From Beijerinckiaceae bacterium (GTDB lineage Bacteria > Pseudomonadota > Alphaproteobacteria > Rhizobiales > Beijerinckiaceae): 64,000 nucleotides of DNA. Location of the stretch: contig JAPZTO010000006.1 in the NCBI GenBank assembly GCA_027532775.1, positions 1-64,000 on the forward strand, written 5' to 3'. Shown piece after piece: positions 5,017 through 21,316 of the stretch; position 1 is the stretch's first letter; every line of letters begins with the position of its first letter. The notes below the pieces were generated by a model. That model had not been told where the DNA came from, made no database searches, and saw nothing but the letters and a program-made list of their open reading frames with translations. The position numbers and the translations under genes were made by a program.

Positions 5017-5017
5017 C

Positions 5018-6739
5018 TCAGCGCCTCCTTGTGCCGAAGACCGAGGAGAAGCGGTGCGCGCCATGCTGCGAGGCCGGTGCCGGGCTGGCTGATGGCGGCG
5101 CAGGCGATGGAGCCGGCGGCATTGGGGCCGGTGGCGGGGCCGCAGCGGAAGGCGGCGGTGCGGCAGCGGTCGGGCGGTAGGGCTCGTATTGCGGCACGGC
5201 AGGCGCCTTGGGCCGGTTCTCGGTCGAACCTTCCATGATCGGCTGCTTGGTCATCGGAATGCGCATCGTGCCGGCCGGCAGGGTTTGCGTGGGGCGGCCA
5301 CCGCGCGTTTCCGGGCGGTTGATCCGGCCATTCTCGTCGATCGGTGTCGCGGGGATCTCCGCCCGCGCGCCGCCACCGCCCGCCAATGAGGATTGCCGCC
5401 GCGCCTCGTCCGAGAGCGGCCACCGCGCCTTTTCCGCCGCGACCTGCACGCATTCGATCAATGCCGTGTTCTTCGCCACGCGGCGATGGGCCTTCATGTC
5501 GCCATCGCGATAGGCGTTGAGGATGCGGAATTCCATCGGATCGAGCCCGCAGGCCTCGGCACCCTTGTCCATATGGACCTCGAGGGCGAAGTCAACGGCG
5601 GTGATGCCGAAGCCGCGCATCGCGGTGGAGGGGCAGCGGTTGGTGTAGACGACATGGATGTCGGAGGTGACATTGGGGATCGTATATGGCCCCGGCAGAT
5701 GGGCCGTGCACTTGATCGCAGCATAGCTCGACAGGCGGGTATAGGCGCCGGCATCGAAATAGGAGCGGACATGCCGGGCAATGATACGCCCGTCGCGGGC
5801 GATGCCGTCCTTGATGTAGATGCGCTCGGCGCCGCGCGGGCTGCCATAAAGCATCTCCTCCTCGCGATCGAGCACATAGCGGACCGGGCGCCCCGTCATC
5901 ATCGCACCAAGGATGGAGAGCGGCTCGGTCAGCGAATCCACCTTGCCGCCGAAGCCGCCGCCCACCGTGCCGCCGATGAAGTGCAGGCGGTTGGAATCGA
6001 GATTGACGATCTTTGCCGCCGTGCCGAGCGAAAAGAACAACCCCTGCGCGCAGGAATGCACGACGAAGCGGTCATTCTGCTCCGGTGCGGCGATCGAGCC
6101 GTTGGTTTCCGTCGGCGCATGCTCGATCGGCGACATCTGGTAGCGGTCCTCGACGATATGGTCCGCCATGGCGAAGCCACGTTCGACATCGCCGAAGCGC
6201 AGCTTCTGGTGGTCGTATTTCTCGTGATATTCGAAATAGTTGCCGGGATAGGTCTCGTTGATGACCGGCGCGCCGGGTTTCAACGCCTCCTCGACATCGA
6301 ACACCGCCGGAAGCGGTTCGTAATCCACCCGCACCAAGGCCCGCGCGGCGAGCGCCTGCGCCTCGCTCTCGGCAATGATCGCGACAATGGGTTCACCCTT
6401 GTAACGCACCTTGTCCACCGCGAGGGTCGGCTCGTCATCCTTGCCGAAATTGATCAGCGAGAGCAGGGTGTTCTTGTTGACGGGCACATCGGCGCCACGA
6501 AGGATCCGCTTGACGCCGGGTGCGCGCTCGGCGGCGGAGATATCGATCCGGCGGATCCGCGCATGGTGATGCGGCGAGCGCACCACCTTGAGATGCAGCA
6601 GCCCCTCGAAGGCATGGTCGTCGAAGAAGGGCGAGCGGCCGGTGACATGGCCCGGCATGTCCTGCCGCTGCACACCCTTGCCGACGACATTGAGGTTGTC
6701 GTCGCGCTCGTTCTGGAAGAGGTCCTTGCGGAATTCCAT
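5018..6739 (-). CDS. Molybdenum hydroxylase large subunit, N-terminal half with Pro-rich tail
   Basis: The 573 residues contain the a/b-hammerhead domain (about 20-150) and the first molybdopterin-binding domain (about 160-440). Visible landmarks are GGTVGGGFGGK (256-266) and AMRGFG (373-378) in the place of the xanthine-dehydrogenase RGFG arginine motif. The CO dehydrogenase loop AYxCSFR is absent, so this is not a form I CODH. From about residue 450 the sequence becomes Gly-, Pro- and Ala-rich and runs to the stop, with no counterpart in single-chain homologues. The start at 6739 is preceded by GGAGG at eight bases. The second half of the enzyme is encoded by the next gene. Confidence 0.87.
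   Translation of the reverse strand: MEFRKDLFQNERDDNLNVVGKGVQRQDMPGHVTGRSPFFDDHAFEGLLHLKVVRSPHHHARIRRIDISAAERAPGVKRILRGADVPVNKNTLLSLINFGKDDEPTLAVDKVRYKGEPIVAIIAESEAQALAARALVRVDYEPLPAVFDVEEALKPGAPVINETYPGNYFEYHEKYDHQKLRFGDVERGFAMADHIVEDRYQMSPIEHAPTETNGSIAAPEQNDRFVVHSCAQGLFFSLGTAAKIVNLDSNRLHFIGGTVGGGFGGKVDSLTEPLSILGAMMTGRPVRYVLDREEEMLYGSPRGAERIYIKDGIARDGRIIARHVRSYFDAGAYTRLSSYAAIKCTAHLPGPYTIPNVTSDIHVVYTNRCPSTAMRGFGITAVDFALEVHMDKGAEACGLDPMEFRILNAYRDGDMKAHRRVAKNTALIECVQVAAEKARWPLSDEARRQSSLAGGGGARAEIPATPIDENGRINRPETRGGRPTQTLPAGTMRIPMTKQPIMEGSTENRPKAPAVPQYEPYRPTAAAPPPSAAAPPPAPMPPAPSPAPPSASPAPASQHGAHRFSSVFGTRRR
5024..5030 (-). promoter_or_regulatory. Strong ribosome binding site for the C-terminal large-subunit gene
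   Basis: AAGGAGG on the minus strand lies seven bases before the ATG at 5016 and within the last codons of the upstream ORF. It is a near-perfect Shine-Dalgarno sequence, which supports independent initiation of the second half of the split subunit immediately after termination of the first. Confidence 0.75.
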
Positions 6740-6753
6740 GGCTGGTTGCCTCC

Positions 6754-7239
6754 TCAGGATCGGCGCTGCGCCGGCAGCGTCCGGGCGGCGGCGAGGATGG
6801 CCTGGATGATCGGCTCGTAGCCCGTGCAACGGCAGATATTGCCGGCAATGGCATCGATCACATCCTCGCGGCTCGGATCAGGGTTGCGGTCCAGCAGCGC
6901 CTTCGCCGCCGTCAGCATGCCCGGCGTGCAGAAGCCGCATTGCGCGGCGAAATGCTCCATGAAGGCGTTCTGCAGAGGATGCAGGTTCGGCCCGTCGGCC
7001 ATGCCGGATACGGTCTCGACGCTCGCCCCCTCGCAGGAGGCCGCGAGGGTCAGGCAGGCGAGGCGCAGTTCGCCGTCGATCAGCACCGAACAGGTGCCGC
7101 AGGTACCCTGCCCGCAGCCATATTTCGGGCCGAAATCGTTGAGGCCACGCCGCAGCACGGTGAGCAAGCTGTCCGCCGGATCGGCGAAGGCGGCGCGGTC
7201 GGAGCCGTTGAGGCGGAACTGCACGGGAACTTTCGCCAT
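6754..7239 (-). CDS. (2Fe-2S)-binding small subunit of the molybdenum hydroxylase
   Basis: This 161-residue protein has the plant-type ferredoxin motif GCGQGTCGTC and a downstream Cys in LACL. The C-terminal helical domain carries CGFCTPGM and ICRCTGY. All eight cysteines for two 2Fe-2S clusters are present, as in CoxS/XdhB-like subunits. It transfers electrons between the Mo site and FAD. The order FAD subunit, FeS subunit, Mo subunit is the usual Cox-type order, with gaps of 11 and 14 bases. An AGGAGG site precedes the ATG. Confidence 0.92.
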   Translation of the reverse strand: MAKVPVQFRLNGSDRAAFADPADSLLTVLRRGLNDFGPKYGCGQGTCGTCSVLIDGELRLACLTLAASCEGASVETVSGMADGPNLHPLQNAFMEHFAAQCGFCTPGMLTAAKALLDRNPDPSREDVIDAIAGNICRCTGYEPIIQAILAAARTLPAQRRS

Positions 7240-7250
7240 CCTCGCCTCCT

Positions 7251-8072
7251 TCAGCTCTGGTTCGCCAGAAGCCGGCCGAGATGGACCGGCAGAACCTCGC
7301 GGCGATACCAGTCGCTCGCGATCGCGTCGGTGACGGGCTGGATGCCCTCCAGTGCGGCAGCACGGGCGGCGGCACCGCCGGCGGCATCGAGCGCCTTGCC
7401 TTCGAGCGCACGCTCGACCCCGCGCGCCCGGATCGGCACGGGGCCCATGGCGCCATAGGCGACCCGCGCCTGCCCGATCCGGCTGGCATGGCCCGGCAGA
7501 TGGGTGGCGATGGACAGGACCGAAAGGCCTTTCGGCTTGACCCGGCTGACCTTGATGAAGCGGAAATCGCCCGGCGCAACAGGGCGGTTGAACTGGACCG
7601 ACGCGACGAGGCGGGCCTCCCCGCGCGACCGGCCGGCGAGAAACTCCTCGATTGGAACAGCACGCGGGCTGCCATAGCCAGCGAGCACCATCACCTGCGC
7701 ATCAAGCGCCAGCAAAGCCACGGCGAAATCGCCATAAGGCGCTCCGGCGAAGAGGTTGCCGCCGATCGTCGCCATGTTGCGGATGGCCGGACCGCCGACG
7801 GCCCTTGCCGCGGCATGAAGGAAGCCCAGTTCGCGATTGGCGAGGATCGCGGCCATGGTCGCGCCGGCACCGAGTTCGATCCGGCTGCCGGACACCTGGA
7901 TCTGCCGCCAGACGGGGTCAGTCACCCGCAGCAGCGTGCCCTCGGTCAGGCGGCCCTCGTTGACATCTCGCATCACCAGAGTCCCGCCCGAGAGCAGGGT
8001 GGTGCGGGAATCCGCCGCTAGGATGCCGGCGGCTTCGGACAGGCTCTGGACCACGCGCAGCGCAAGGGGCAT
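7251..8072 (-). CDS. FAD-binding medium subunit of the molybdenum hydroxylase
   Basis: This 273-residue protein belongs to the CoxM/FAD-binding PCMH family. Visible landmarks are LLSGGT near the N-terminus and IRNMATIGGNL, the conserved TIGGN flavin-binding loop, followed by the CO dehydrogenase flavoprotein C-terminal domain. It accepts electrons from the FeS subunit and passes them to an acceptor, or to oxygen or quinone. The ATG at 8072 is one base after the stop of the upstream SRPBCC gene (TGA-C-ATG). The longer upstream frame lacks homology, so this start was chosen. Confidence 0.9.
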   Translation of the reverse strand: MPLALRVVQSLSEAAGILAADSRTTLLSGGTLVMRDVNEGRLTEGTLLRVTDPVWRQIQVSGSRIELGAGATMAAILANRELGFLHAAARAVGGPAIRNMATIGGNLFAGAPYGDFAVALLALDAQVMVLAGYGSPRAVPIEEFLAGRSRGEARLVASVQFNRPVAPGDFRFIKVSRVKPKGLSVLSIATHLPGHASRIGQARVAYGAMGPVPIRARGVERALEGKALDAAGGAAARAAALEGIQPVTDAIASDWYRREVLPVHLGRLLANQS

Positions 8073-8073
8073 G

Positions 8074-8526
8074 TCAGGCTCCCGTCTCGAGAAGTTGCGG
8101 CATCTGGCGGACGGCTTCCATGCCGGCGACATAGACATCCTCGCCCACCATCCGGGCGAATTCTTCCTCGCGGCCGGCCGGGGTGGTGAAGCGGCTTTCC
8201 CAGTGCCAGAAGCTGCGGTTGCCATCGGTGACCGGCAGCAGCCGGATATGCGCGACATAGTTGAAAAGCGGAACCGGCGTATCGAGCAGGCAATAGGAGT
8301 AGCTCATCTCGAGATCCGAGAGGCTGAGCAGCTGCTCGCGCAACTCGCTGCCGTCGCGCAGGGTGAAGCGCCGCACGCAGCCGACCTTGTCCACCGGATG
8401 GCCCCGCTCGATCTGGCTGGTGGCCACGATCGGGTGATACTGGTCATGCGCATTGAAATCGCGCACGACGGCCCAGAGGCGGTCAACCGGCACATCGATG
8501 ATCGTGCTGCGCACCACTTTCGGCAT
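8074..8526 (-). CDS. SRPBCC family protein, second of a tandem pair
   Basis: This 150-residue protein has the START/Bet v1-like fold pattern of the polyketide cyclase/dehydrase group: an N-terminal strand, VPVDRLWAVVRDFNAHDQYHP, then successive beta strands and a long C-terminal helix. The preceding gene product is similar along its whole length, for example DKVGC followed by LREQLL, so the two are paralogues. CoxG, which takes part in CO dehydrogenase biogenesis, is also an SRPBCC protein, so a maturation role is possible. Alternatively the pair binds a hydrophobic substrate or intermediate. Confidence 0.78.
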   Translation of the reverse strand: MPKVVRSTIIDVPVDRLWAVVRDFNAHDQYHPIVATSQIERGHPVDKVGCVRRFTLRDGSELREQLLSLSDLEMSYSYCLLDTPVPLFNYVAHIRLLPVTDGNRSFWHWESRFTTPAGREEEFARMVGEDVYVAGMEAVRQMPQLLETGA

Positions 8527-8527
8527 G

Positions 8528-8965
8528 TCAGCCTCCGAAAGCCCGCTTCAGCGCGTCGAACCCGCCCTGGAAGACGTTGCCGCCGATGCCCGAGACGAGA
8601 TCGGCCTCCTTGTCCGGCGCGCAATCGAACTCGGCCGACCATTCGATGAAGGTGCGGTCCTGATCGGTGACCGGCGTCAGGCGCAGGGTGGCGACGTAAT
8701 TGGTCAGCGGCATCGGCGAGTCGAGGATCGAGTAGGTGCAGAACATGTCGTAATCCGACAGGCCCAGCAGCTGCTCGCGGAGACGGTCGCCGTTCCGGAG
8801 CGAGAAGGCCCGGATGCAGCCGACCTTGTCGGCCGGCTCGCCATTCTCGATCCGGCTCTCGGCAATGGCCGGGTGCCAGTTCGGCAGGCCGTTGAAATCC
8901 CGCACCCGGGCCCAGACCCGGGCCGCCGGAGCATTGATCACGCTGGAAGCGTAGACGCGTGCCAT
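8528..8965 (-). CDS. SRPBCC family protein, first of a tandem pair
   Basis: This 145-residue protein is a paralogue of the next gene product, sharing a WARVRDFNGLPNWHP-type N-terminal helix, DKVGCIRAF and LREQLLGLSDY. It is a small hydrophobic-ligand-binding fold without signal peptide or membrane segment. One base separates it from its twin, and a 29-base gap separates it from the flotillin-like gene upstream. It could bind the pathway substrate, or act like CoxG in maturing the hydroxylase. The sequence alone does not decide between these. Confidence 0.78.
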   Translation of the reverse strand: MARVYASSVINAPAARVWARVRDFNGLPNWHPAIAESRIENGEPADKVGCIRAFSLRNGDRLREQLLGLSDYDMFCTYSILDSPMPLTNYVATLRLTPVTDQDRTFIEWSAEFDCAPDKEADLVSGIGGNVFQGGFDALKRAFGG

Positions 8966-8994: not shown

Positions 8995-11634
8995 TCACTT
9001 TTTCTCACCGCCGCCATCCTTGCCGCCGCCATCCTTGCCTCCACCATCCCTGGGCTTGGAAGGCTGGGCATCTTTGGCGACGCGCTGCATGTCGGAGGCC
9101 TCGCGCATCAGCCCGCCCATCTTGGCGAGGCTGCCGCCCTCGATGCCGATCTCCTTCAGCACCTCGTCGATCAGCGGCGCCTGGACGCGGTAGCGCAAGG
9201 CGCTCTCGATCACCTCGTCGGTCGGGGTGCGGCCGGATCCGGAACCGCCGCCGGACAGACCATCGACATGGAGGATCTTGATGCCGTCGATCTTCTCCAT
9301 CGGCTTGACGCTCTCGCGCACGATACCCTCGATCCGGTCGAGCAGGCGGCGGCGGAACAGGCCATAGCGGGCGCCATCCGTCAGCACATTCTCGGCCTCG
9401 TAGAGCAGGCGCTGGGCCTCGGCCTCGACCGCGCGGCGGACCTTGTCGGCCTCGGCGGCGATACGGGTTTCGTCGGCCGCCTTCTCGGCCATCATGACCT
9501 CGACGGTGCGGCGGCGCTTCGCCGTCTCGCGCTCGCGCACGGTGGTGACCATCTCGGCGGCCTCGACTGCCTTGGCCTTGGCCAGTTCCGCCTGGGCAGC
9601 CGCGGCGCTTTCCTCGAGCGACTTGGTGTAGAGCGTGATCGCCTTCTCCATCGCCGCGTTCTCGACATCACGCTCGCGCTCGATCTCGAGCTTGCGCAGG
9701 TCGCGCTGGCGGCCGACACGCGCTTCGTCGAGGCCGCGATCGGAGGCGATCCGTGCGCGCTCGACTTCCTCGTTCGAGACGATCTGCGCCTCCTGCAGCG
9801 CCTGGACCCGGGCGATTTCCAGCTGCTCGATCACGCGCTTGCGTTCGAGCCGGGCGGCTTCCAGCGCCTGCTCGCGGGCGACATCGGTGCGCTCGACCTC
9901 CTGCTTGGCCACGATCTCGGCCTGACGCAGCGCCTTGTCGGCATCGGTACGTTCCGCCTTCTTGGCCGCGAGCGTGATGGCGCGGTCTTCCTCGGCCAGT
10001 TCGACGACGCGCTTCTGCTCGATCTGAAGGATCTCGCGCGTCCGGGCCGAGGCGATGCGCTCCTCGTCGATCTTCAGCTCGGCGGCGATGCGCTGCCGCT
10101 CGACCGCGTCGCGGCGCTGGATCTCGGCGGCTTCCAGTTCCTCCGTCCGGCGGATTTCGAGCCGACGCGTTTCAAGTTCCGAAGCGATCCGCTCGGCGGC
10201 GATGGCCTTTTCCTGCGCGATGCGGGCGGCTTCGGTGGCTTCACGGGCGGTAATCTCGGCCGTCTCGACCACCTTGTTGCGCTCGATCTCCAGCTTGCGG
10301 CGGCCTTCCTCGAAGCCGATCCGCTCGGCCGTCACCGCGTTTTCCTGAGCGATCCGCGCCTTTTCCACCGCCTCGCGGGCAGCGATCTCGGCCTCGTCCA
10401 GCGCCCGGTTGCGGGCGATCTCGAGATTGCGGATCTCCTGCTCGCGGCCGATCCGTTCGGCATTGACCGCATTTTCCTGCGCAATCCGGGCCTTCTCTGT
10501 CGATTCCCGCGCGGCGATCTCGGCCGCCTCGAGCATCCGCGTCCGCTCGATCTCCTTCTGGCGCGTCTCGAGTTCCGAGGCGATGCGTGCTGCCTGGATC
10601 GACTTGTCGTTATGGATGCGGGCCTTCTCGATTTCCTCGCGGGCGAGGATCTCGGCCGATTCCACAGCCTTGGTGCGCTCGATCTCGCGCTGGCGGACCT
10701 CGCGGTCCGAGGAGATGCGCGCCTCGCTGATCGCACGCTCATTGGCGATCTTCGCCTTCTCGATCTCCTCGCGGGAGAGGATCTGCGCCTGCTCGGCCTC
10801 GGTATCGCGGGCCGCGCGCTCCCGCGCCACCTCGGCGCGCTGCATGGCCCGCCGGATCTCGATCTCGCGCTGCTGCTCCAGCCGGGCGGTCTCGCTCTCG
10901 CGCTCGATATCGAGGGCCTGCCGCTCCGCCTCGAGGTTGCGGGTGCGGATGCGGATCATCGAATCCTGCTCGATATCGTTGCGGAGCTTCCGCTTTTCCT
11001 CGATCTCCTCGATGATCCGGGTCAGACCTTCGGCATCGAACCGGTTGGACGGATTGAAATATTGCAGGTCGGTCTGGTCGAGATCGGTGATCGCCACCGA
11101 TTCCAGCACAAGGCCGTTCTGCTCCATCATGTCGACGGCAGCATCGCGCACGCGCTGGACATAGAGCCCGCGCTGCTCGTGCATTTCCTCCATCGACATT
11201 TCCGAGGCCACCGAGCGCAGGGCCGAGATGAACTTGCCGGAAAGCAAGGCATTGAGCTGGTCGGGCTGCAGCGTCCGCTTGCCGAGCGTGGCGGCTGCGA
11301 TAGAGACCGAGGGCCTGTCCGGCCGGACGCGGACATAGAATTCTGCATCGATATCGACGCGCATCCGGTCCCGCGTGATCAGCGCGTCCTGGTTGGCCCG
11401 GGTAACGGCCATGCGCAGGACATTCATGTTCACCGGCGTGACATCATGGATGATCGGCAGCACGAAGGCGCCGCCATTGATCACCACCTTTTCGCCGAAC
11501 AGGCCGGTGCGCACGAAGGACACCTCCTTCGACGAGCGGCGATAAAGCCAGTTCACCAGATAGACGATGATCGCAATGCCGATCACCGCCACGATGAGCC
11601 AGAGAATGAGGGTTCCGATCAGTTGCCCCGTCAT
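8995..11634 (-). CDS. Very long flotillin-like membrane-anchored coiled-coil protein
   Basis: This 879-residue protein has a single N-terminal membrane helix (about residues 5-30) with no cleavable signal, then an SPFH/band-7 domain (about 35-200). A nearly uninterrupted helical region rich in Glu, Arg and Ala follows to about residue 760. Residues 293-556 contain tandem 44-residue repeats. The C-terminus has an FRRRLLDRIEGIVRES-like segment and a low-complexity Gly/Lys tail (GGGKDGGGK). Bacterial flotillins scaffold membrane microdomains, but most are 500-700 residues long. The ATG at 11634 follows GGGAGGAA. Its place between transporter and hydroxylase genes is unusual. Confidence 0.85.
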   Translation of the reverse strand: MTGQLIGTLILWLIVAVIGIAIIVYLVNWLYRRSSKEVSFVRTGLFGEKVVINGGAFVLPIIHDVTPVNMNVLRMAVTRANQDALITRDRMRVDIDAEFYVRVRPDRPSVSIAAATLGKRTLQPDQLNALLSGKFISALRSVASEMSMEEMHEQRGLYVQRVRDAAVDMMEQNGLVLESVAITDLDQTDLQYFNPSNRFDAEGLTRIIEEIEEKRKLRNDIEQDSMIRIRTRNLEAERQALDIERESETARLEQQREIEIRRAMQRAEVARERAARDTEAEQAQILSREEIEKAKIANERAISEARISSDREVRQREIERTKAVESAEILAREEIEKARIHNDKSIQAARIASELETRQKEIERTRMLEAAEIAARESTEKARIAQENAVNAERIGREQEIRNLEIARNRALDEAEIAAREAVEKARIAQENAVTAERIGFEEGRRKLEIERNKVVETAEITAREATEAARIAQEKAIAAERIASELETRRLEIRRTEELEAAEIQRRDAVERQRIAAELKIDEERIASARTREILQIEQKRVVELAEEDRAITLAAKKAERTDADKALRQAEIVAKQEVERTDVAREQALEAARLERKRVIEQLEIARVQALQEAQIVSNEEVERARIASDRGLDEARVGRQRDLRKLEIERERDVENAAMEKAITLYTKSLEESAAAAQAELAKAKAVEAAEMVTTVRERETAKRRRTVEVMMAEKAADETRIAAEADKVRRAVEAEAQRLLYEAENVLTDGARYGLFRRRLLDRIEGIVRESVKPMEKIDGIKILHVDGLSGGGSGSGRTPTDEVIESALRYRVQAPLIDEVLKEIGIEGGSLAKMGGLMREASDMQRVAKDAQPSKPRDGGGKDGGGKDGGGEKK
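10099..10758 (-). repeat. Five tandem 132-bp (44-residue) coding repeats in the flotillin-like gene
   Basis: Residues 293-336, 337-380, 381-424, 425-468 and 469-512 align without gaps. Each begins with a KARI- or AARI-like segment and ends in AREE/AREAxE-like sequence. A sixth, more divergent unit covers 513-556. Forty-four residues equal four hendecads, consistent with an 11-residue coiled-coil periodicity rather than the 7-residue one. Divergence between copies suggests old duplication. Confidence 0.75.
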
Positions 11635-11662
11635 GTCACGTTCCTCCCTCAGCCTGCCTGCC

Positions 11663-12517
11663 TCACGCCGGACCCGGCGCGCCGCCTGTGCGGCTGATTG
11701 TCTTGAAAGCCCTGGTCTGTTCGCGGATCGCCACTTCCACCGGCAGGCGCTCCATCGAGGAGGCGCCATAGAAGCCGTGGCAATGGCGGGTCTTCTTCAT
11801 GATGAAATCGGCATCCGGCGGCTCGGCCACCGGCCCGCCATGGACGAGGATGATCGCATCCGGCTTGACGGCCAGAGCTGCCGCCGCCCAGGCATCGACA
11901 ATGGCCGGGCAATCCTTCAGCTTGAGCGCGGTTTCCGCGCCGATCGAGCCGCCGGTCGTCAGGCCGAGATGGCAGACGATGATATCCGCCCCCGCACCGG
12001 CCATGGCGGCGGCATCCGCCTCGGAAAACACGTATGGCGTGGTCAGCAGGCCCTTTTCCCGGGCGAGCCGGATCATCTCGACTTCGAGGCCGTAGCCCAT
12101 GCCGGTTTCCTCGAGATTCTGCCGGAACACGCCATCGATCAGCCCGACGGTCGGAAAATTCTGCACGCCGGAAAAGCCGATTCGCGCGACATCGTCGAGG
12201 AAGACATCCATCGAGCGGAAAGGATCGGTGCCGCAAACCCCGGCAATGACCGGGGTTTTCTTCACGACCGGCAAGACCTCGCTGGCCATATCCATGACGA
12301 TGGCATTGGCATCGCCATAGGGCATCAGCCCGGAAAGCGAGCCGCGCCCGGCCATGCGGAACCGGCCGGAATTGTAGATCACGATCAGATCGATGCCGCC
12401 GGCTTCCTCGCATTTCGCGGAAAGGCCGGTACCGGCACCGCCGCCGACGATCGGCTCTCCCCGCGCGATCATCGCACGGTAGCGGGCGAGCAATTCGGTG
12501 CGGGCGAAGCGGGGCAT
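11663..12517 (-). CDS. Phosphoenolpyruvate hydrolase-family TIM-barrel protein
   Basis: This 284-residue protein matches the PEP-hydrolase-family TIM barrel (COG5564 type). Landmarks include [14 protein letters not shown] near the N-terminus, [13 protein letters not shown], and CGTDPF, and later LVHGGP. The biochemical role of the bacterial family is poorly defined. It is three bases downstream of the LivF-Tm-1 fusion gene. In the plant Tm-1 protein an equivalent barrel forms the C-terminal half, so the two gene products probably act together. Confidence 0.82.
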
Positions 12518-12520
12518 GTC

Positions 12521-14746
12521 TCAGGTCCTGCCGGTAGCGCCCCGGAAGCGGCCCTGATGCAGCGCACGGAAATGCTGCACGAGGGCGGCCGCGAAGGCGG
12601 GGTCATTGATGTGATGGGGCAGCCGGATGAGCTGCCGGGTCGCGGTGACGCGGATTGTCGAGGCAATCGCGTCGAACAGCGCGGCATCGGCGGCGGGATC
12701 CCAGAAGGGCTGGCCCGGCGCATCCAGCGCGGAAACGCCGCCTTCCGGCAGCAGGAACCGCACGGGCCCCTCCATCTGGTTGAGGCGCTCGCCGATCCAG
12801 CGGCCCATACGGGCATTCTCCTCCGCTGTGGTCCGCATCAGGGTGATCTGCGGGTTATGCGGATAGAAGAGCCGCTGGCGATAATGTGCGGGCACGGTGT
12901 CCGGCGCGGCGAAATTGACCATGTCGAGCGCGCCGACCGAGCCGACATACGGGATCTTCGTGCGGATCACGGCGCCGAAGCGGTCCTCCGTGGCCGGGAG
13001 GATGCCGCCCATCATCATGTCGCAGATCTCGGTGGTCGAGACGTCGATCACGCCAGGCACGAGGCCGGAATCGATCAGCTTTTCCATCGAGCGGCCGCCA
13101 GTACCGGTGGCATGGAAGACCAGCGGCTCCCATTCCCGTTCGATCAGCCGCGTCACCTGCTGGACGCAGGGCGTTGTCACGCCGAACATGGTCAGCCCGA
13201 CCAGCGGCTTTTCGGCCTCGGGGCGACGTGTTGCCGGCCCGTGCTGCTGCTCGTGGAAGCTCCGCGCCATGGCTGCCATGGCCTGCGCGGCATTGCCGAG
13301 CACTGTCCGCGAGACGCGGTTCAGGCCCTGAACATCGGTCACCGAATGCATCATCGTGATGTCGGTCGCGCCGACATAGGCCGCGACATTGCCCGAGGCC
13401 ATGGTCGAGACCATCAGCTTCGGCACGCCGACCGGCAGGGTCTGCATGCCGGCGGTGGCAATGGCGGTGCCGCCGGAACCGCCTGCCGAGATGATGCCGA
13501 TCACGCCCTGCTGGCGCGCCATCCAGGCGCGAAACGCCTCTGTCATGGCGGCGACAGCCTTGCCGCGATCACCCGAGGCAATGCCGGCGGAGCCGTTCGG
13601 CAGGGCCAGCGCCACTTCCTGCGCAGAAACATCCGCGCCCTGATTGCGGCCATTGGTCGAGAGATCGACGAGGCGGGTGCGCAGGCCAGCAGCCTTGATC
13701 GCATCGCGCAGGAAGCGGAGTTCCACGCCCTTGGTATCGAGCGTGCCGGCGATGATGACATGCGGATCCTGCGGCGCGCGCGCCGCAAGCGGCGAGACAT
13801 CGCCAACGCGGCGGCCGTCGATCGTCGCGAGAATCGGCCGGGAGATGGTGCGGGCCTGCGCCTCGATCCGCGCAGCCGGCACATCCTGCGACCAGCGCGT
13901 CGGAACCGTGGGATTGGCATTGTAGACCCGGATCGGGCCCTGCGAGGCCGTGGCAGCGGGACGCGGCTCGCCGGATGGCGCCGGGCCCGGGCCAGCCTCG
14001 GGTTCCTCGTGGCTGTGCCGGCCGACGCCGAGCAGACGCTGCTGGAGATCGCGGTCAGCCGCGAGCACCGAGGAGGCGATGACGCGGTGGATCCGGCCAT
14101 TGACCATGATGGCGATCGTGTCCGACATCTGCGTCGCGACGCCGATATTCTGCTCGACGACAAGGATCGAGACATCGCCCTCGGCCGCGAGGCGCACCAG
14201 CGTTTCCTCGACATGGGCGACGATGACCGGGGCAAGGCCTTCGGTCGGCTCGTCCATGATGAGCAGGCGCGGATTCATCAGCAACGCACGGCTGATCGCC
14301 AGCATCTGCTGTTCGCCACCGGAAAGCTGGGCGCCGCCGTTGCGGCGCCGTTCGGCCAGGCGCGGGAAAACCTCGTAGATGCGCTCGGGCGTCCAGGCGC
14401 CCTTCCCGCGGGACATCAGGCGGAGATGCTCGTCCACCGTCAGCGAGCGCCAGAGCCGCCTTCCCTGCGGGACATAGCCGATGCCCATCCGAGCGATCTC
14501 GGCAGGGGTGCGGCCGACAAGTTCCTCGCCCATGAAGCGGATCGAACCGGAGGAAACCGGCACGAGGCCCATGATGGCCTTGCAGGTCGTGGTCTTGCCC
14601 ATGCCATTCCGGCCGACCACCGAGAGCACACCCGAATGGAGCGCGAGATCGACCCCCTGCACGGCATGCGAGCGGCCATAGAAGACGTTGACGCCCTGGA
14701 GTTGCAGGATCGGCGCGCCGGCGCCGCGGACGGGGCGCTCACTCAT
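12521..14746 (-). CDS. Fusion of a LivF-type ABC ATPase and a Tm-1-like (UPF0261) ATP-binding domain
   Basis: The 741 residues fall into two modules. Residues 13-242 form a complete LivF ATPase with Walker A GRNGMGKTT (45-53), signature LSGGEQQ (141-147) and Walker B LLIMDEP (161-167). After a Pro/Ala-rich linker (about 245-325), residues 330-735 form a Tm-1-like/UPF0261 domain with GTLDTKGVEL (334-343), SAGGSGGTA and STTEICDMMMGG. The first module should drive the Liv-type importer encoded upstream. The second is an ATP-binding domain of uncertain activity. The gene overlaps livG by eight bases. No stop or frameshift lies between the modules. Confidence 0.88.
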   Translation of the reverse strand: MSERPVRGAGAPILQLQGVNVFYGRSHAVQGVDLALHSGVLSVVGRNGMGKTTTCKAIMGLVPVSSGSIRFMGEELVGRTPAEIARMGIGYVPQGRRLWRSLTVDEHLRLMSRGKGAWTPERIYEVFPRLAERRRNGGAQLSGGEQQMLAISRALLMNPRLLIMDEPTEGLAPVIVAHVEETLVRLAAEGDVSILVVEQNIGVATQMSDTIAIMVNGRIHRVIASSVLAADRDLQQRLLGVGRHSHEEPEAGPGPAPSGEPRPAATASQGPIRVYNANPTVPTRWSQDVPAARIEAQARTISRPILATIDGRRVGDVSPLAARAPQDPHVIIAGTLDTKGVELRFLRDAIKAAGLRTRLVDLSTNGRNQGADVSAQEVALALPNGSAGIASGDRGKAVAAMTEAFRAWMARQQGVIGIISAGGSGGTAIATAGMQTLPVGVPKLMVSTMASGNVAAYVGATDITMMHSVTDVQGLNRVSRTVLGNAAQAMAAMARSFHEQQHGPATRRPEAEKPLVGLTMFGVTTPCVQQVTRLIEREWEPLVFHATGTGGRSMEKLIDSGLVPGVIDVSTTEICDMMMGGILPATEDRFGAVIRTKIPYVGSVGALDMVNFAAPDTVPAHYRQRLFYPHNPQITLMRTTAEENARMGRWIGERLNQMEGPVRFLLPEGGVSALDAPGQPFWDPAADAALFDAIASTIRVTATRQLIRLPHHINDPAFAAALVQHFRALHQGRFRGATGRT

Positions 14747-15542
14747 GGCCGCCTCCGAGATAGAGTTCCTGCACCTCGGGATCGTCCTCGATCTCCTCCG
14801 GCCGGCCTTCCTTGAAGATGCGGCCGTTATGCATCATCGTCACGCTCTCGACGACGCGCAGGGCCACATCCATGTCGTGTTCGATGATGATGTAGCCGAT
14901 ATGGCCGGGCAGCGTGGTGAGGATCGAGACAAGATCGCGCCGCTCGGTCGGCGAAAGGCCCGCCGCCGGTTCGTCGAACAGGATGAAGCGCGGCGCGCCG
15001 GACAGGGCGAGCGCGATTTCGAGCTGGCGCTGCTGGCCATAGGCGAGTTCGCCAACCAGCCGGTCTTTTTCGTCCGTCAGATGCACCGCCTCGACCAGCG
15101 TTTCCGCCGCGTGGACGAGGGCATCATCCCGCCTTGGGCGGATCAGCGAGAAGCGGTTCCGCGAGACGCCCCGGCAGGCGAGATAGACATTGTCGATCAC
15201 CGACAGGCCGGCGAAGAGGGAGGAGATCTGGTAGGTGCGGCGCAACCCGCGCCGGATCCGCTCATGTGGCGGAAAGGTGGTGACGTCCTCGCCGAAGAAG
15301 CGGATCAGCCCGGCCGTCGGCAGGAAATCGCCGGTGATGCAGTTGAACAGGGTCGTCTTGCCGGCGCCGTTCGAGCCGAGTACGGCGCGGCGCTCGCCCG
15401 GACGGACCGAGAGCGTGACGTCGGAAATGGCGGCGAGCGCGCCGAACATCTTGGTGATGCCGCGCAGTTCCAGCGCATTGCCGGCGCTGACATGGCTCTG
15501 GCCGAGGGCGACCGGCCGGGGCGGTGTGACGGGGGCGTTCAT
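14739..15542 (-). CDS. LivG-type ABC transporter ATP-binding protein
   Basis: This 267-residue protein has Walker A GSNGAGKTT, the LivG-type insertion around TYQISSLF, a signature-region helix GELAYGQQRQLE and Walker B ILFDEPAAGL. It belongs to the HAAT family ATPases of branched-chain amino-acid-type importers. The ATG at 15542 overlaps the livM stop by four bases, and its own stop overlaps the LivF-Tm-1 start. In this cluster the substrate is probably not a branched-chain amino acid but the compound degraded by the downstream enzymes. Confidence 0.9.
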   Translation of the reverse strand: MNAPVTPPRPVALGQSHVSAGNALELRGITKMFGALAAISDVTLSVRPGERRAVLGSNGAGKTTLFNCITGDFLPTAGLIRFFGEDVTTFPPHERIRRGLRRTYQISSLFAGLSVIDNVYLACRGVSRNRFSLIRPRRDDALVHAAETLVEAVHLTDEKDRLVGELAYGQQRQLEIALALSGAPRFILFDEPAAGLSPTERRDLVSILTTLPGHIGYIIIEHDMDVALRVVESVTMMHNGRIFKEGRPEEIEDDPEVQELYLGGGHE

Positions 15543-16603
15543 GCCGCGCCTCCCCCCGACAGCTGATCCTGCTGCTGCCGGCGGCGCGCGCGCCAGCGGT
15601 CCCAGAGGCCCAGCACGCCATCGGGCGAGAACAGCACGACCGCGAGGAAGCCGAGGCCGATGATCAGCTTGAAGCGTTCGGCGGAGAAGCCGAAAAAGCC
15701 GAGGATATCCGGCGAGAAGACCTGCAGGATCACATAGATGAAGGCGCCGATGAAGGGCCCGAGTGGCCTTCGCATGCCGCCGACCACCGCCACGACGAGC
15801 ACATCGATCGCGGCGGACATGCCGATTGTGCCCGGTGCAATCTGCGCATTCTGCCAGACCAGCAGGATACCGCCGGCCGAAGCGAAGACGCTGGCGAGCG
15901 CATAGGCCGCGACACGATGGGCGGTGACGTTGAAGCCGAGCGCGGCCATGCGGCGGGGATTGTCCCGCACGCCCTGCAGCGCCAGGCCGAAGGGCGAGCG
16001 CGAAACATAGACCACCGTGCCATAGGACAGGGCGGCCAAAGCGAGGCTGAGATAGTAGAAGGGCACGGGTTCGCGCCAGTTCACCCCGAAAAGCTGCGGT
16101 GGCAGGACGAGGTTGAACCCGGAATAGCCGTTGAAGATCGTGTAGTTCTGCCGCGTGAAGTAGAAGAACGCCGCCGCGATGGCGAGGGTGATCATGATCG
16201 TATAGATGCCCTCCGTCCGCACGGCGAGCGCGCCGGACACCGTGGCGAAGAGCGCGGCGATCAGGAAGGCGGCGGGCAGGACGATCCACCAGGAAAGGCC
16301 GAGGCTGACCGTGACCGTGCCGGAATTGCCGAGGATCGCGACCATGTAGCCGGCCATGCCGGCCACGGTCATCTGCAGCAGGCTGACCATGCCGCCATAG
16401 CCTGCAAGGAACATCAGGCTGAGCCCGATCATGCCGAGGATGAAGGTCCAGCCCATGACCTGGAACAGCCAGAAACTGTTGGCCACGACCGGCAGGAAGA
16501 GCAGAACCACCGCCAGCGCCCACCAGGGCGCGGGGATGCGCTCGAACCAGAGCTTCTGGTCGGCACGGTTGACGAAGCGGGGGGCGTGGTCGGTCATCGC
16601 CAT
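15539..16603 (-). CDS. LivM-type ABC transporter permease
   Basis: This 354-residue inner-membrane protein has about nine or ten hydrophobic helices and the LivM landmarks GLSLMFLAGYGGMVSL near the N-terminus and GVRDNPRRMAALGFNV in the cytoplasmic loop that contacts the ATPase. It forms the translocation pore with the LivH-type permease encoded three bases upstream. The start is the first ATG after the livH stop. It overlaps livG by four bases. Confidence 0.9.
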   Translation of the reverse strand: MAMTDHAPRFVNRADQKLWFERIPAPWWALAVVLLFLPVVANSFWLFQVMGWTFILGMIGLSLMFLAGYGGMVSLLQMTVAGMAGYMVAILGNSGTVTVSLGLSWWIVLPAAFLIAALFATVSGALAVRTEGIYTIMITLAIAAAFFYFTRQNYTIFNGYSGFNLVLPPQLFGVNWREPVPFYYLSLALAALSYGTVVYVSRSPFGLALQGVRDNPRRMAALGFNVTAHRVAAYALASVFASAGGILLVWQNAQIAPGTIGMSAAIDVLVVAVVGGMRRPLGPFIGAFIYVILQVFSPDILGFFGFSAERFKLIIGLGFLAVVLFSPDGVLGLWDRWRARRRQQQDQLSGGGAA

Positions 16604-16606
16604 GGG

Positions 16607-17623
16607 CTAGCGCCTCGCCCCGAGCAGGCCCTGCGGGCGGAAGGCCAGCACGGCCGCCATGATGAGGAAGGTGAAGACCACCGAATAGGTGGGCGCATAG
16701 ACGAAGCCCATCTGCTCGGTGACGCCGATGATCAGCGAGCCGAGGGCCGCACCGACGATCGAGCCCATGCCGCCGACAATGACGACCACGAGGCTGGCCA
16801 GCAGGAAGCGCGTATCCTCGCCCGGCGAGAGCGACTGGAAGGTGCCGCCGATAATGCCGGCCATGCCGGCGAGGCCGGCGCCGAAGCCGAACACGGCGAG
16901 GAAGACGAGCTGGATCCGCACGCCGGAGGCAGCCAGCATCTCGCGGTCATCCACCCCGGCACGGATCAGCATGCCGAGCGCCGTCCGGTTCAGGACGAGC
17001 CACATGGCCACACCGATGACAATGGCGGCGATCAGGATCCAGATCCGCACGGCCGGGTAGCGCAGCCAGTTGGTGGCGCCGGTGCTGGCATTGATGGAGT
17101 TGATGATCGGCAGTTCCATCGGCCCGGTCAGGAAGCCGGGCGCGAGAATCGAGTAGGATTGGCCACCCCAGAGCCAGAGCATGAGATCGGCGAGGACGAT
17201 GGAAATGCCGATGCTGACCAGCGTCTGCCTCAGTTCCTCGCCCTCCATCTTCGAGAAGATGAAACGCTGCATCAGCAGGCCGAGCAGGCCGACGACGAGG
17301 AACACAACCGGGAAGGCGATGAACCACGAGCCGGTGAGGCTGGCAATCTCGTAGCCGAGATAGCCGCCGAGCAGGAACAGCGAGCCATGGGCGAGGTTGA
17401 CGACCCGCATCAGGCCGAAAATCAGCGTGAAGCCGGCGGCGACGAGGAAATACAGCGCTCCGAGCGTGATGCCGCCAAGCAGCGCATTCAGGAAGATCTG
17501 CTTGCGGCCCCATTTTGCCACCAGTTCCGGCGGCCACGGCGCGAAGACAAGCCAGAGGAAAACCGCGATCAGGATCGCGATGATCAGGCTCCGGAGCGGA
17601 TTGCGCTTGATGATGTCATCCAT
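16607..17623 (-). CDS. LivH-type ABC transporter permease
   Basis: This 338-residue integral membrane protein has the LivH landmarks GLMRVVNLAHGSLFLLGGYLG-like helix 2 and 3 sequence, RAGVDDREMLAASGV in the EAA-like cytoplasmic loop, and a C-terminal ending FRPQGLLGARR. The ATG at 17623 (MDDII) is chosen because upstream in-frame residues have no membrane or family character, though its ribosome site is weak. It follows the AraC gene by 168 bases and starts the permease-ATPase block. Confidence 0.88.
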   Translation of the reverse strand: MDDIIKRNPLRSLIIAILIAVFLWLVFAPWPPELVAKWGRKQIFLNALLGGITLGALYFLVAAGFTLIFGLMRVVNLAHGSLFLLGGYLGYEIASLTGSWFIAFPVVFLVVGLLGLLMQRFIFSKMEGEELRQTLVSIGISIVLADLMLWLWGGQSYSILAPGFLTGPMELPIINSINASTGATNWLRYPAVRIWILIAAIVIGVAMWLVLNRTALGMLIRAGVDDREMLAASGVRIQLVFLAVFGFGAGLAGMAGIIGGTFQSLSPGEDTRFLLASLVVVIVGGMGSIVGAALGSLIIGVTEQMGFVYAPTYSVVFTFLIMAAVLAFRPQGLLGARR

Positions 17624-17750
17624 CGCGGCGTGTCTCGGAAGACCCTGTCCTCGGGCCGGCATCCTGTCTTCGCAGGAATTTGCCGGACCCGGATGGCGCC
17701 CTTTCGCCACCCCTCTTCGGCAAGACTAGAATGAGCACCGGCCGGCACGC

Positions 17751-17791: not shown

Positions 17792-18628
17792 TCAATGGAC
17801 GGCCCCGAGCACGCTGCGCCGGTAGGCACTGGGGGGTACGACCCCATTGGCGATGAAGAAGCGCGAGAAGCTGGCCGGGGTGGCAAAGCCGAGATCGAGG
17901 CCGATTTCCGAGACCGTCTCCTCGCCGCGCGCCAGCCTCTCGATGGCGCGTTCCATCCGGAGGGCGTTGAGATAGAGCGTCGGCGGCAGACCCACCTGCT
18001 CCCGGAACAGCTTGAAGAAATGCGGCCGCGACAGGCCGGCCGCACGCGAGACGACGCTGAGGTCGATCGGCTCGCCGAGGGTTTCGCCAAGCAGGCTGAT
18101 CGCCCGCCGGATCCGGAAATCGCGGAAGCCGAAGCGCAGCCGGTCCCCGGCCTGCCCCCCCGCCTGCCATTGCCAGGTCTGGTCGAAGGCGGCCTGCGTC
18201 AGGGCGCTGAGCCGGTCCTCGAAATTGCCATCGCCGTCGGAATAGGCGGCAAGCTGACGGGCGGTTTCGGCCGCAAGGCGGGCAATATGGTCGTCCATGC
18301 TGACGACCGGCCGGCCGAAACGCAGGATTTCCGAGGCCTGCCCGCTGGCCTCCACGAACCAGCCGGGGCGGATATAGAGAACTAGCGTCAGGGTCGCATT
18401 GCGCCGATCCACCGGCATGAAATAATGCGGCTGCCAGGGGCTGATCGCCGTCGCCTCGAGCGGATTGAGCGGATAGGCGCGACCGTCGATGACGACCTTT
18501 GCCGCCGGTCCACGGACATGGAAGATCAGATGCCCTTCCCGGTGGGCATGCGGCACCATCGGCCGGTCCAGCTCGTAGAGGCAAGCCCGCCCGAACGCAC
18601 CATGTGCGACAGCGTGAGCGATGCTCAT
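17792..18628 (-). CDS. AraC-family transcriptional regulator
   Basis: This 278-residue protein has an N-terminal cupin-like ligand domain (about 1-140, with HREGHLIFHV) and a C-terminal double helix-turn-helix (about 175-275, including LSRPHFFKLFREQVGLPP and SEIGLDLGFATPASFSRFF). AraC regulators of this arrangement usually activate neighbouring catabolic genes when the substrate binds. It lies inside the minus-strand cluster between the dehydrogenase homologue and livH. A GGGAGGAA site lies five bases before the ATG. Confidence 0.9.
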   Translation of the reverse strand: MSIAHAVAHGAFGRACLYELDRPMVPHAHREGHLIFHVRGPAAKVVIDGRAYPLNPLEATAISPWQPHYFMPVDRRNATLTLVLYIRPGWFVEASGQASEILRFGRPVVSMDDHIARLAAETARQLAAYSDGDGNFEDRLSALTQAAFDQTWQWQAGGQAGDRLRFGFRDFRIRRAISLLGETLGEPIDLSVVSRAAGLSRPHFFKLFREQVGLPPTLYLNALRMERAIERLARGEETVSEIGLDLGFATPASFSRFFIANGVVPPSAYRRSVLGAVH

Positions 18629-18725: not shown

Positions 18726-19781
18726 TCACCATGCGGCTTCGAGGATGCGCCGGCAGTCGCCCGGGGTCAGGCGGCGCGGGTTGGCAAGGGCGGCCGGGTC
18801 ATTCGCCGCCATTTCGGCAAAACGGTCGAACCGGCGCCGGTCGATACCGATCTCGCGAAGGCTCGTCGGCAGGCCGAGGCCACGGGCGAAGGCGCCGATC
18901 TCGGTGCTGAGCGAGACTTGCCCGTCGCGCCGGGCCAAAGTCATGGCGAGGGCGGTGTAGCGATCCCCCACGGCCTGCGCGTTGAAATCCGCCATCGCCG
19001 CAAGAAGCGGGGCGTGCAGGTCACCCGGCAGGAAACCGGATCGCAATTCCGGTTCGATCGGAAAGGCCAGGGCATCGACCCCGCCAACCGCCTTTTCGAG
19101 CGCGAGGCCGGCAGTCATTGCCGCCGCCATGATCTCGCGCCTCGCCTCGCGATGGCCGGGCACGCCCAGAACCACCGGCAGCCAATGCGTCATGCGGCGC
19201 ACGGCCTCGAGGGCGAGGCCATCGGCCGGAGGGTTGTAGCTCGGGCTGGCATAGGCCTCGATCGCATGGACCATGATTTCCATGGCCGAGGCGGCGATAC
19301 GGCGGATCGGCACCTGTTCGAGCACGGTCGGATCAACAATCACCCGGTCGGGCCGCGGGCACGGGGCCGGCCGGCCATCCCGCGGCCGGACATGGCGACC
19401 GAGGCCGAGATCGAAGAGCCCGACCGGCACGGCGATGACCGTCAGCCTCTCGCCCTGCCGGGATGCCTCGGCCGCCACCAGCCGCGCCTGACCGACGGCC
19501 TGGGCCCCGCCGACAGCGAGCAGGGTCGACGTGCCGATCTGCCGCAGGCGGGCCAGCAATTCGCGGGTCTCCCCGCGCGAGGGTGCGCCGGGCGGAAGGG
19601 CATGGACGGTCAGCGGGATGCGGTCCAGTGCCTCGCTGACGCGGGCAAGGGCGGCGCGGGCGCCGGGCTCGTCATCCGCCAGCACCAGCGCCTCGGAAAG
19701 AACCCCGGTTTCCTCGGGCAGCGCATCCTCGATGGCGCCTTCCGCGAAATGGGTCCGGGTCAGATAGCCTATCAGGGTCAT
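18726..19781 (-). CDS. Divergent iron-containing alcohol dehydrogenase/maleylacetate reductase homologue
   Basis: This 351-residue protein follows the group III alcohol dehydrogenase fold, with an N-terminal nucleotide-binding half, an HAIEAY helix and the C-terminal LGLPTSLREIG and NPRRLTP segments. The dinucleotide loop, usually GGGSxxD, reads GGAQAVG. By my eye alignment the metal ligands D-H-H-H become Glu, His and two non-His residues. It may therefore be metal-free, as maleylacetate reductases are, or non-catalytic. GGGAG lies eight bases before the ATG. The gene lies between the binding-protein gene and the AraC gene. Confidence 0.75.
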   Translation of the reverse strand: MTLIGYLTRTHFAEGAIEDALPEETGVLSEALVLADDEPGARAALARVSEALDRIPLTVHALPPGAPSRGETRELLARLRQIGTSTLLAVGGAQAVGQARLVAAEASRQGERLTVIAVPVGLFDLGLGRHVRPRDGRPAPCPRPDRVIVDPTVLEQVPIRRIAASAMEIMVHAIEAYASPSYNPPADGLALEAVRRMTHWLPVVLGVPGHREARREIMAAAMTAGLALEKAVGGVDALAFPIEPELRSGFLPGDLHAPLLAAMADFNAQAVGDRYTALAMTLARRDGQVSLSTEIGAFARGLGLPTSLREIGIDRRRFDRFAEMAANDPAALANPRRLTPGDCRRILEAAW

Positions 19782-19844
19782 CGGCAGCACTCCCGGCGAG
19801 GGCGGTCTGTTGCCGCCCGTTCTTGTCTTCGCGAAGGAGAGAAC

Positions 19845-19866
19845 GGCTGGCCCCGGGGGGCCAGCC
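19845..19866. terminator. GC-rich hairpin after the Liv-type binding-protein gene
   Basis: GGCTGGCCCC at 19845-19854 pairs with GGGGCCAGCC at 19857-19866. On the minus strand it follows the stop of the periplasmic binding protein by about 30 bases and is followed by a pyrimidine-rich but not U-only stretch. It probably protects the binding-protein mRNA or partly terminates transcription, lowering expression of downstream genes. Confidence 0.6.
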
Positions 19867-19896
19867 GCATGTCGGCGTGTCGATGAGGAGGGCCGG

Positions 19897-21162: not shown

Positions 21163-21316
21163 AGGTATTCCTCCCTGTGACGCGGCAGGTCCCACCGGCT
21201 TTGACGCCGTGGCGGGCCTGCTCGCCTCGCAGCGCGATCTTCAGCCGCGCCTCGCTGAAGGCTGCCGTTCAACCCCGAAACCGCCCATATCCCAGCGTCT
21301 CATTTTATGGCGGAGG

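Follow-up and report, generated by a model that had tools for sequence, protein, structure and literature searches.

A LivF-like transport ATPase joined in frame to a UPF0261/Tm-1-like domain within a conserved alphaproteobacterial gene cluster

One fusion of the protein families UPF0261 and TBST, the latter of which we take to be COG5564, became the virus-resistance gene Tm-1 of tomato. Both families have been reported from bacteria, archaea, fungi and nearly all sequenced land plants, and in the consulted portions of that study the prokaryotic genes were described as generally separate and co-evolving, with the plant fusion being derived (Yang et al. 2016, PMC5028733). The term ABC (ATP-binding cassette) is absent from its main text. 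COG5441 and COG5564 were among the top pairs in fungi by phylogenetic profiling, according to the consulted excerpt of PMC8963296. Here, a bacterial gene is described in which UPF0261 is joined to the ABC ATPase of an importer. It is located in a stretch of 64,000 nucleotides (the window) from a Beijerinckiaceae bacterium (GenBank assembly GCA_027532775.1, contig JAPZTO010000006.1, positions 1 to 64,000). No paper on a bacterial LivF-UPF0261 fusion was found in the open-licence literature, which the search covered in part, and the architecture is probably already displayed in domain databases.

The fusion gene and its TBST neighbour

The fusion gene occupies positions 12521..14746 of the reverse strand, as do all window genes given below, and forms a single open reading frame (ORF) of 741 amino acids that begins with ATG and contains no internal stop. 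A preliminary description of this DNA had claimed an in-frame fusion of a LivF-type ATPase with UPF0261, and this was borne out, all domains scoring above their Pfam cut-offs. Within the frame, a LivF-like ABC ATPase comes first, about 85-92 linker residues follow, and the UPF0261/Tm-1-like region after them is complete. The ATPase part (residues 1-240, 14027..14746, boundary approximate) matched ABC_tran (PF00005) at residues 31-168 with 91 bits against a cut-off of 25. The UPF0261 region matched the N-terminal domain (PF06792; residues 328-497, 13256..13765) with 200.7 bits and the C-terminal domain (PF23189; residues 513-729, 12560..13210) with 298.1 bits, each against a cut-off of 27. The protein also passed NF002673 (607.4 against 520) and thus belongs to UPF0261 on both counts. 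With ABC_tran, Walker A and B, Q-loop and signature it is likewise a Liv/Urt-type ABC ATPase, and it stays under the NCBIfam equivalog cut-offs of UrtE (218.8 against 285.8) and LivF (144.9 against 441). No other ATPase among the transporter genes of the cluster takes the LivF place, and the start of the fusion gene is overlapped by 8 bases by the end of the LivG gene.

Walker A, Q-loop, signature, Walker B with the catalytic Glu and the D-loop glycine were all found in the ATPase part of the window gene. In a thinned set of 73 fusions, the Walker A Gly and Lys, the Q-loop Gln, the signature SGG, the Walker B Asp, the catalytic Glu and the D-loop Gly were invariant, and the last Walker A residue and the signature Glu each deviated in one row. 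The switch position, which is His in many ABC ATPases, was Gln in the window gene and in all 73; five unfused LivF-like frames read by eye had EQN in four (L194, L205 and both of L113) and EQH in L145. The UPF0261 part retains the Tm-1 stretches GTxDTK, TMFGVTTPCV, FHATGxGG and HNxQxxLMRTT, which PDB entry 9mpy has in part only. Judged from sequence, both parts of the fusion look intact.

The linker (residues ~241-325, 13772..14026, boundary approximate) is rich in Pro, Ala and Glu and mostly variable in sequence between fusions, the distance between the ATPase end and GTxDTK being 78-239 residues (median 93, window 92). The linker usually holds the stretch P-[TN]-R-W-S, which is PTRWS at residues 282-286 of the window protein (13889..13903), and the Arg and Trp of this stretch (window R284, W285) were present in 73 of the 73 fusions.

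Three bases (12518-12520) separate the fusion stop codon from the start of the TBST gene (11663..12517, 284 amino acids). The product matched PF09370 with 429.6 bits against a cut-off of 33.8 and has the fold of PDB entry 2p10, which agrees with the earlier claim of a PEP-hydrolase-family TIM barrel as the next gene. At E 0.001, the window assembly (completeness 99.73%) contained one match each for UPF0261, PF09370 and the Flot domain, all within the cluster.

Structures were predicted singly, as the preliminary description had proposed. The AlphaFold2 model of linker plus UPF0261 (mean predicted local distance difference test score, pLDDT, 82.8) had Tm-1 (3wrw) as its best PDB match, followed by 9mpy, and in Foldseek its template modelling (TM) score to 3wrw_A was 0.73 by query and 0.89 by target, which identifies the Tm-1 fold. 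The TBST model (mean pLDDT 79.3) was nearest to 2p10, and then to ketopantoate hydroxymethyltransferase, PdxS/PDX1, methylisocitrate lyase and tryptophan synthase chains; these fold neighbours weakly hint at lyase, aldol-type or phosphate chemistry. A PDB profile search for distant UPF0261 relatives returned just Tm-1 and 9mpy below E 0.5, the latter being, by its title, the UPF0261 protein Saro_1862 solved with bound acetovanillone. The acetovanillone kinases HpeHI/AcvAB were considered as UPF0261 homologues and set aside, HpeI being an ATP-grasp protein and HpeH swivel/rifampin-binding-like in the consulted part of PMC12167813; acvAB is homologous to hpeHI in the consulted part of PMC9618137. 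At locus L118, near the second variant of the cluster described below, a single protein (989-2722) combines TBST (PF09370) with a Fis-type DNA-binding domain, and because of this joining TBST may also serve as a ligand sensor.

Distribution and origin of the fusion

The fusion was counted in even draws of 299 genomes from the phylum and 385 from the class (Alphaproteobacteria) and in 61 genomes of relatives, the three sets overlapping. UPF0261 matched in 28 genomes of the phylum draw, nine of which had an open frame of 742-821 residues at the match; all nine belong to the class of the window, and the ABC part was confirmed in eight, the ninth having no locus. In the class draw, 50 genomes had a match and 19 of them were fused, the ABC part being in frame in every one. 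Among the relatives, UPF0261 matched in 23 and was fused in 15 (two cut by contig ends). TBST matched in 21 relatives, each of which also carried UPF0261, and the copies in the two genomes with UPF0261 alone scored more weakly (G300, 57 bits; G191, 149 bits). Far from being always separate in close relatives, the two modules shared a frame in 9 of the 16 other genomes drawn from the genus of the window (G304 cut by a contig end), where the remaining matches were weak (about 57-58 bits in G300 and G304). Fusions outside Alphaproteobacteria (L086, L107, L123, L130, L132) were all metagenome-assembled and named as Gammaproteobacteria, Granulosicoccus or Burkholderiales. On a plasmid of Azospirillum brasilense (L139), UPF0261 was found at residues 656-1047 of a 1056-residue frame with no ABC match in frame. 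NZ_OL790811.1, which is listed as a Proteus mirabilis plasmid, had a UPF0261 match at 53% identity; its size of 4.08 Mb suggests a chromosome.

Gene neighbourhoods were compared in named loci, which are the best 80 of 589 relatives ranked by likeness to the window. A one-frame fusion was present in 72 of the 80, and LivG directly preceded the fused gene in 68 of 69 loci while TBST directly followed it in 67 of 69. The physical tie of a transport ATPase to UPF0261, put forward in the preliminary description, is therefore conserved across many genera, usually with TBST next door. Among the 55 named loci with full flanks, 44 were of a molybdenum (Mo) type, ten had no Mo genes and one (L107) had LivG only. 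The Mo type comprised LivH, LivM, LivG, TBST, flotillin, two SRPBCC genes, a flavin adenine dinucleotide (FAD) subunit, an iron-sulphur (FeS) subunit and two Mo genes, with a binding protein in 43 loci and an iron-containing alcohol dehydrogenase homologue in 18. The second variant had LivH, LivM, a substrate-binding protein, LivG, flotillin and two SRPBCC genes, with TBST in nine of the ten; in three of three such regions tested (L118 14569-16044, L130, L132) the second SRPBCC was fused to a zinc-type medium-chain dehydrogenase/reductase (MDR) dehydrogenase. Since the named loci were ranked by likeness, 18 further fused regions from the class draw were examined, some genomes being common to both collections. 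LivH, LivM, the binding protein, LivG, TBST, flotillin and SRPBCC were found in 17 of the 18, the exception (L190) being a 3.4-kb contig, and five were of the Mo type, with the Mo genes of L175 on the other strand. Ten chosen Mo-type regions all held MoxR, CoxE and amidohydrolase-2 genes, and nine held a metallo-beta-lactamase gene.

Flotillin was counted at loci longer than 5 kb with more than 4 kb downstream, as a match on the same strand. It was present at 81 of 82 fused loci (missing in L107) and at two of 31 loci counted as unfused, namely L083, where the frames differ, and L126, where the contig begins at the domain; with these two set aside, it was present at none of 29 separate loci. 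In L083 (Bradyrhizobium sp. AT1), LivF and UPF0261 are in different frames, and the linker motif is still there along with flotillin; the frame break is either a sequencing error or a broken fusion.

A quick maximum-likelihood tree was built from 119 UPF0261 domains (73 fused and 46 separate rows). The fused or separate state required two changes on this tree, and none of 500 shuffles was as low. The separate rows L008 and L124 are nested in a 70-row fused group (support 99) and are most simply explained by a later loss of the fusion. At the fork where this group meets five further fused rows and the separate rows L046 and L136 (support 92), the branching order is not settled; one gain with one later loss is hence the simplest reading, short of proof. 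Long branches were seen for several distant separate rows, which the tree places apart from the fused ones. Loci L194 and L205 have the gene order LivH-LivM-SBP-LivG-LivF-UPF0261-TBST-SRPBCC (SBP, substrate-binding protein). LivF and UPF0261 are two frames there, the LivF stop being overlapped by the first Met of UPF0261; no flotillin turned up in the 7.5 kb downstream in L194 or the only 3.5 kb available in L205. This arrangement is likely the pre-fusion state, and the fusion probably arose by stop loss between adjacent, overlapping livF and UPF0261 genes. The tree and these unfused neighbours suggest that two adjoining genes of an operon were joined in bacteria independently of the plant fusion. 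The earlier statement that the first part of Tm-1 had "moved" onto a transport ATPase is thus not sustained, the prokaryotic genes being generally separate in the portions consulted of PMC5028733.

Stand-alone UPF0261 genes with an adjoining TBST were also found, in four cases beside sugar-type, BMP-type or branched-chain-type transporters, and an SRPBCC gene then follows in two of them and a cupin gene in one. Given these varied transporter and catabolic settings, the UPF0261/TBST pair seems to accompany the import and breakdown of several different compounds. UPF0261 proteins that are more distant, and for which the incomplete gene tables list no TBST, adjoin tripartite transporters or aromatic-degradation genes. 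For example, those of L146, L227 and L228, without TBST among the listed neighbours, lie near homoprotocatechuate or aminotransferase and kinase-like genes and possibly have a different activity.

Proposed function and alternative explanations

The fusion was read as a motor protein that takes the LivF place in an importer of the branched-chain (Liv/Urt-like) type and ends in an intact UPF0261 domain. The explanation we prefer, with confidence that is about evenly balanced, is that UPF0261 and TBST together act on the compound at the transporter that imports it, perhaps within a metabolon organised by flotillin. LivG and the fused LivF would hydrolyse ATP to import a small molecule, probably aromatic or heteroaromatic, and the tethered UPF0261, together with ATP and the separately made TBST barrel, would carry out the first step at the inner face of the membrane. 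The SRPBCC proteins would carry or bind the product, and the breakdown would be finished by the Mo-hydroxylase and hydrolases or, in the second variant, by the SRPBCC-dehydrogenase fusion and an FAA-type hydrolase. Flotillin, perhaps through the invariant linker motif, would gather the parts into a membrane patch. An aromatic or heteroaromatic carbonyl compound is the suggested substrate, given the ligand of 9mpy, the type of binding protein (Peripla_BP_6) and the presence of the Mo-hydroxylase and hydrolases. UPF0261 presumably uses ATP, because of its annotated name "Tm-1-like ATP-binding" and because work on Tm-1 reportedly points to it. Action of the pair on what is imported had already been proposed in the preliminary description, and the conserved catabolic cluster fits this proposal; the flotillin, SRPBCC and Mo-hydroxylase surroundings and the linker motif do not figure in that description.

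Several observations weigh against this explanation. Joining is not needed for UPF0261/TBST chemistry, because such pairs adjoin other transporters unfused. The four matching genomes of the phylum draw outside Alphaproteobacteria included no fusion as judged by frame length, and among nine plasmid regions tested only L138 was fused. TBST is upstream instead of downstream in the fused region L177 and missing from fused L137, and around fused L107 neither TBST nor flotillin nor permeases were found. The link with flotillin is a strong pattern within one group of close kin rather than many independent events, because the locus collections overlap and the fused rows are closely related. In the AlphaFold2 model the Arg-Trp stretch reached a pLDDT of about 60-70 between flanks of 36-47; because of this it may dock onto a partner, whose identity would be a guess. 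No activity for UPF0261 or TBST was found in the consulted parts of the open-licence literature searched.

A serious rival, possible though unlikely in our estimate, is that UPF0261 acts as a regulatory domain. It would detect ATP, or else the compound taken up or the product made from it, and would gate the transporter in response, like the C-terminal domains of MetN, MalK and ModC. UPF0261 does sit C-terminal on an ABC ATPase, the title of 9mpy describes a UPF0261 protein with a small aromatic ligand bound, and the TBST-Fis protein of L118 indicates that the partner family can sense. However, the fusion keeps the signature motifs of stand-alone UPF0261 proteins and Tm-1, and TBST adjoins directly in 67 of 69 loci, which a sensor would not seem to require. 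It is also conceivable, but quite improbable, that the join merely gives equal amounts of LivF and UPF0261, which then work independently. The adjacent LivF and UPF0261 genes of L194 and L205, the mostly variable linker and the unfused pairs beside other transporters are in line with this, whereas the fusion was kept across Alphaproteobacteria and also occurs in metagenome-assembled Gammaproteobacteria and a Burkholderiales, the Arg-Trp pair is invariant and just two separate rows fall within the 70-row fused group. An artefact of assembly or of a frameshift, or in-frame adjacency by chance, was rejected as having practically no probability: apart from L083, where the two parts are in different frames, nothing speaks for it, relatives at 51-98% identity share the architecture, and 72 of the 80 named loci and 19 of the 50 UPF0261-bearing genomes of the class draw are fused.

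Action of the UPF0261/TBST pair on the imported compound, our preferred explanation, can be extended to a transport metabolon, a picture that is tentative and unlikely to hold in full. The cluster of about 20 kb (Mo-type in the window) would then encode a motor with its own ATP-dependent enzyme domain, and TBST, the SRPBCC carriers and a split-subunit Mo-hydroxylase (or dehydrogenase) would be docked on a cognate flotillin by the Arg-Trp motif. The compound would be channelled and chemically trapped on entry, by the same UPF0261/TBST chemistry that would be ancestral to plant Tm-1. With the importer-motor fusion, its matching binding protein and genes for catabolism side by side, the cluster offers a direct handle on the function of UPF0261/TBST. 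If the flotillin link holds, this would be a bacterial flotillin dedicated to a single transport-catabolism unit.

Cluster genes and comparison with known systems

Upstream of the fusion gene are genes for a LivG-like ABC ATPase (14739..15536, PF00005), a LivM-like permease (15539..16603, PF02653), a LivH-like permease (16607..17710, PF02653), the start of which may lie further in, an AraC-family regulator (17792..18628; PF12833, PF02311), an iron-containing alcohol dehydrogenase-like protein (18726..19934, PF25137 above cut-off) and a periplasmic substrate-binding protein of the Peripla_BP_6 type (19897..21195, PF13458). Downstream of TBST, the flotillin/SPFH gene (8995..11769, 924 codons) probably starts at the Met at ORF residue 46. 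Its product has both SPFH and Flot domains (PF01145, 58.5 against 23.6; PF15975, 118.8 against 27) and misses the NCBIfam FloT equivalog cut-off (26 against 700). By eye, its middle is repetitive and charged, and the L118 counterpart is a 684-residue ORF. It is followed by SRPBCC protein 1 (8528..8965) and SRPBCC protein 2 (8074..8526), both PF10604, and by the FAD subunit (7251..8129; PF00941, PF03450) and 2Fe-2S subunit (6754..7239, PF01799) of the Mo-hydroxylase. The cluster continues with a MoxR/CoxD-like AAA ATPase (3094..3978, PF07728), a CoxE-like VWA protein (1955..3097, PF05762), an amidohydrolase-2 family protein (1080..1958, PF04909) and a metallo-beta-lactamase-fold hydrolase (216..1064, PF00753). 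A fusion of SMP-30/gluconolactonase-like (SGL) and isochorismatase-like parts came next after the cluster in all four of the ten chosen Mo-type regions that were tested for it (L214 14477-16051 on the reverse strand, L215, L216, L221); it is not visible in the window because the contig begins at base 1.

The Mo-hydroxylase large subunit (3982-6829) is split between its two cofactor-binding domains into a first half (5018..6829; PF01315 and PF02738), which probably starts further in, and a second half encoded by a separate gene (3982..5064, PF20256). This split is conserved, since the halves were in separate ORFs in 45 of the 45 fused named loci holding both. Assignment as CO dehydrogenase was unsupported, the first half scoring 154.6 and 165.1 bits and the second 106.3 and 137.8 against cut-offs of 991.15 and 950, although each half was scored alone and a full-length cut-off is then hard to reach. 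The stretch AMRGFG differs from AYRGAGR and AYxCSFR, which we take as the motifs for judging the window enzyme against CO dehydrogenase.

Aerobic CO dehydrogenase (cox) clusters share with the window the FAD, FeS and Mo subunits and CoxD/CoxE-like proteins, but the Mo large subunit of the window is split over two genes and stays below the CO dehydrogenase cut-offs. LivF/UrtE ATPases of branched-chain-type importers occupy the same place after LivG and have the same motifs, whereas the fusion carries about 500 extra residues and scores below their equivalog cut-offs. The TBST partner is 62-64% identical to Mll9387 (PDB 2p10), a phosphonopyruvate hydrolase that is "putative" by its title. Saro_1862 of Novosphingobium aromaticivorans (PDB 9mpy) is also a UPF0261 protein, but it is a stand-alone chain of 406 residues and more distant (E 1.9e-59). 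Tomato Tm-1 (PDB 3wrw/3wry) and plant Tm-1-like proteins aligned over the full length of the UPF0261 region of the fusion (E 7e-93), and both have TBST as partner. In plants, UPF0261 and TBST form one polypeptide (PMC5028733, portions consulted), whereas in the window UPF0261 shares its polypeptide with an ABC ATPase and TBST has a gene of its own across the three-base gap.

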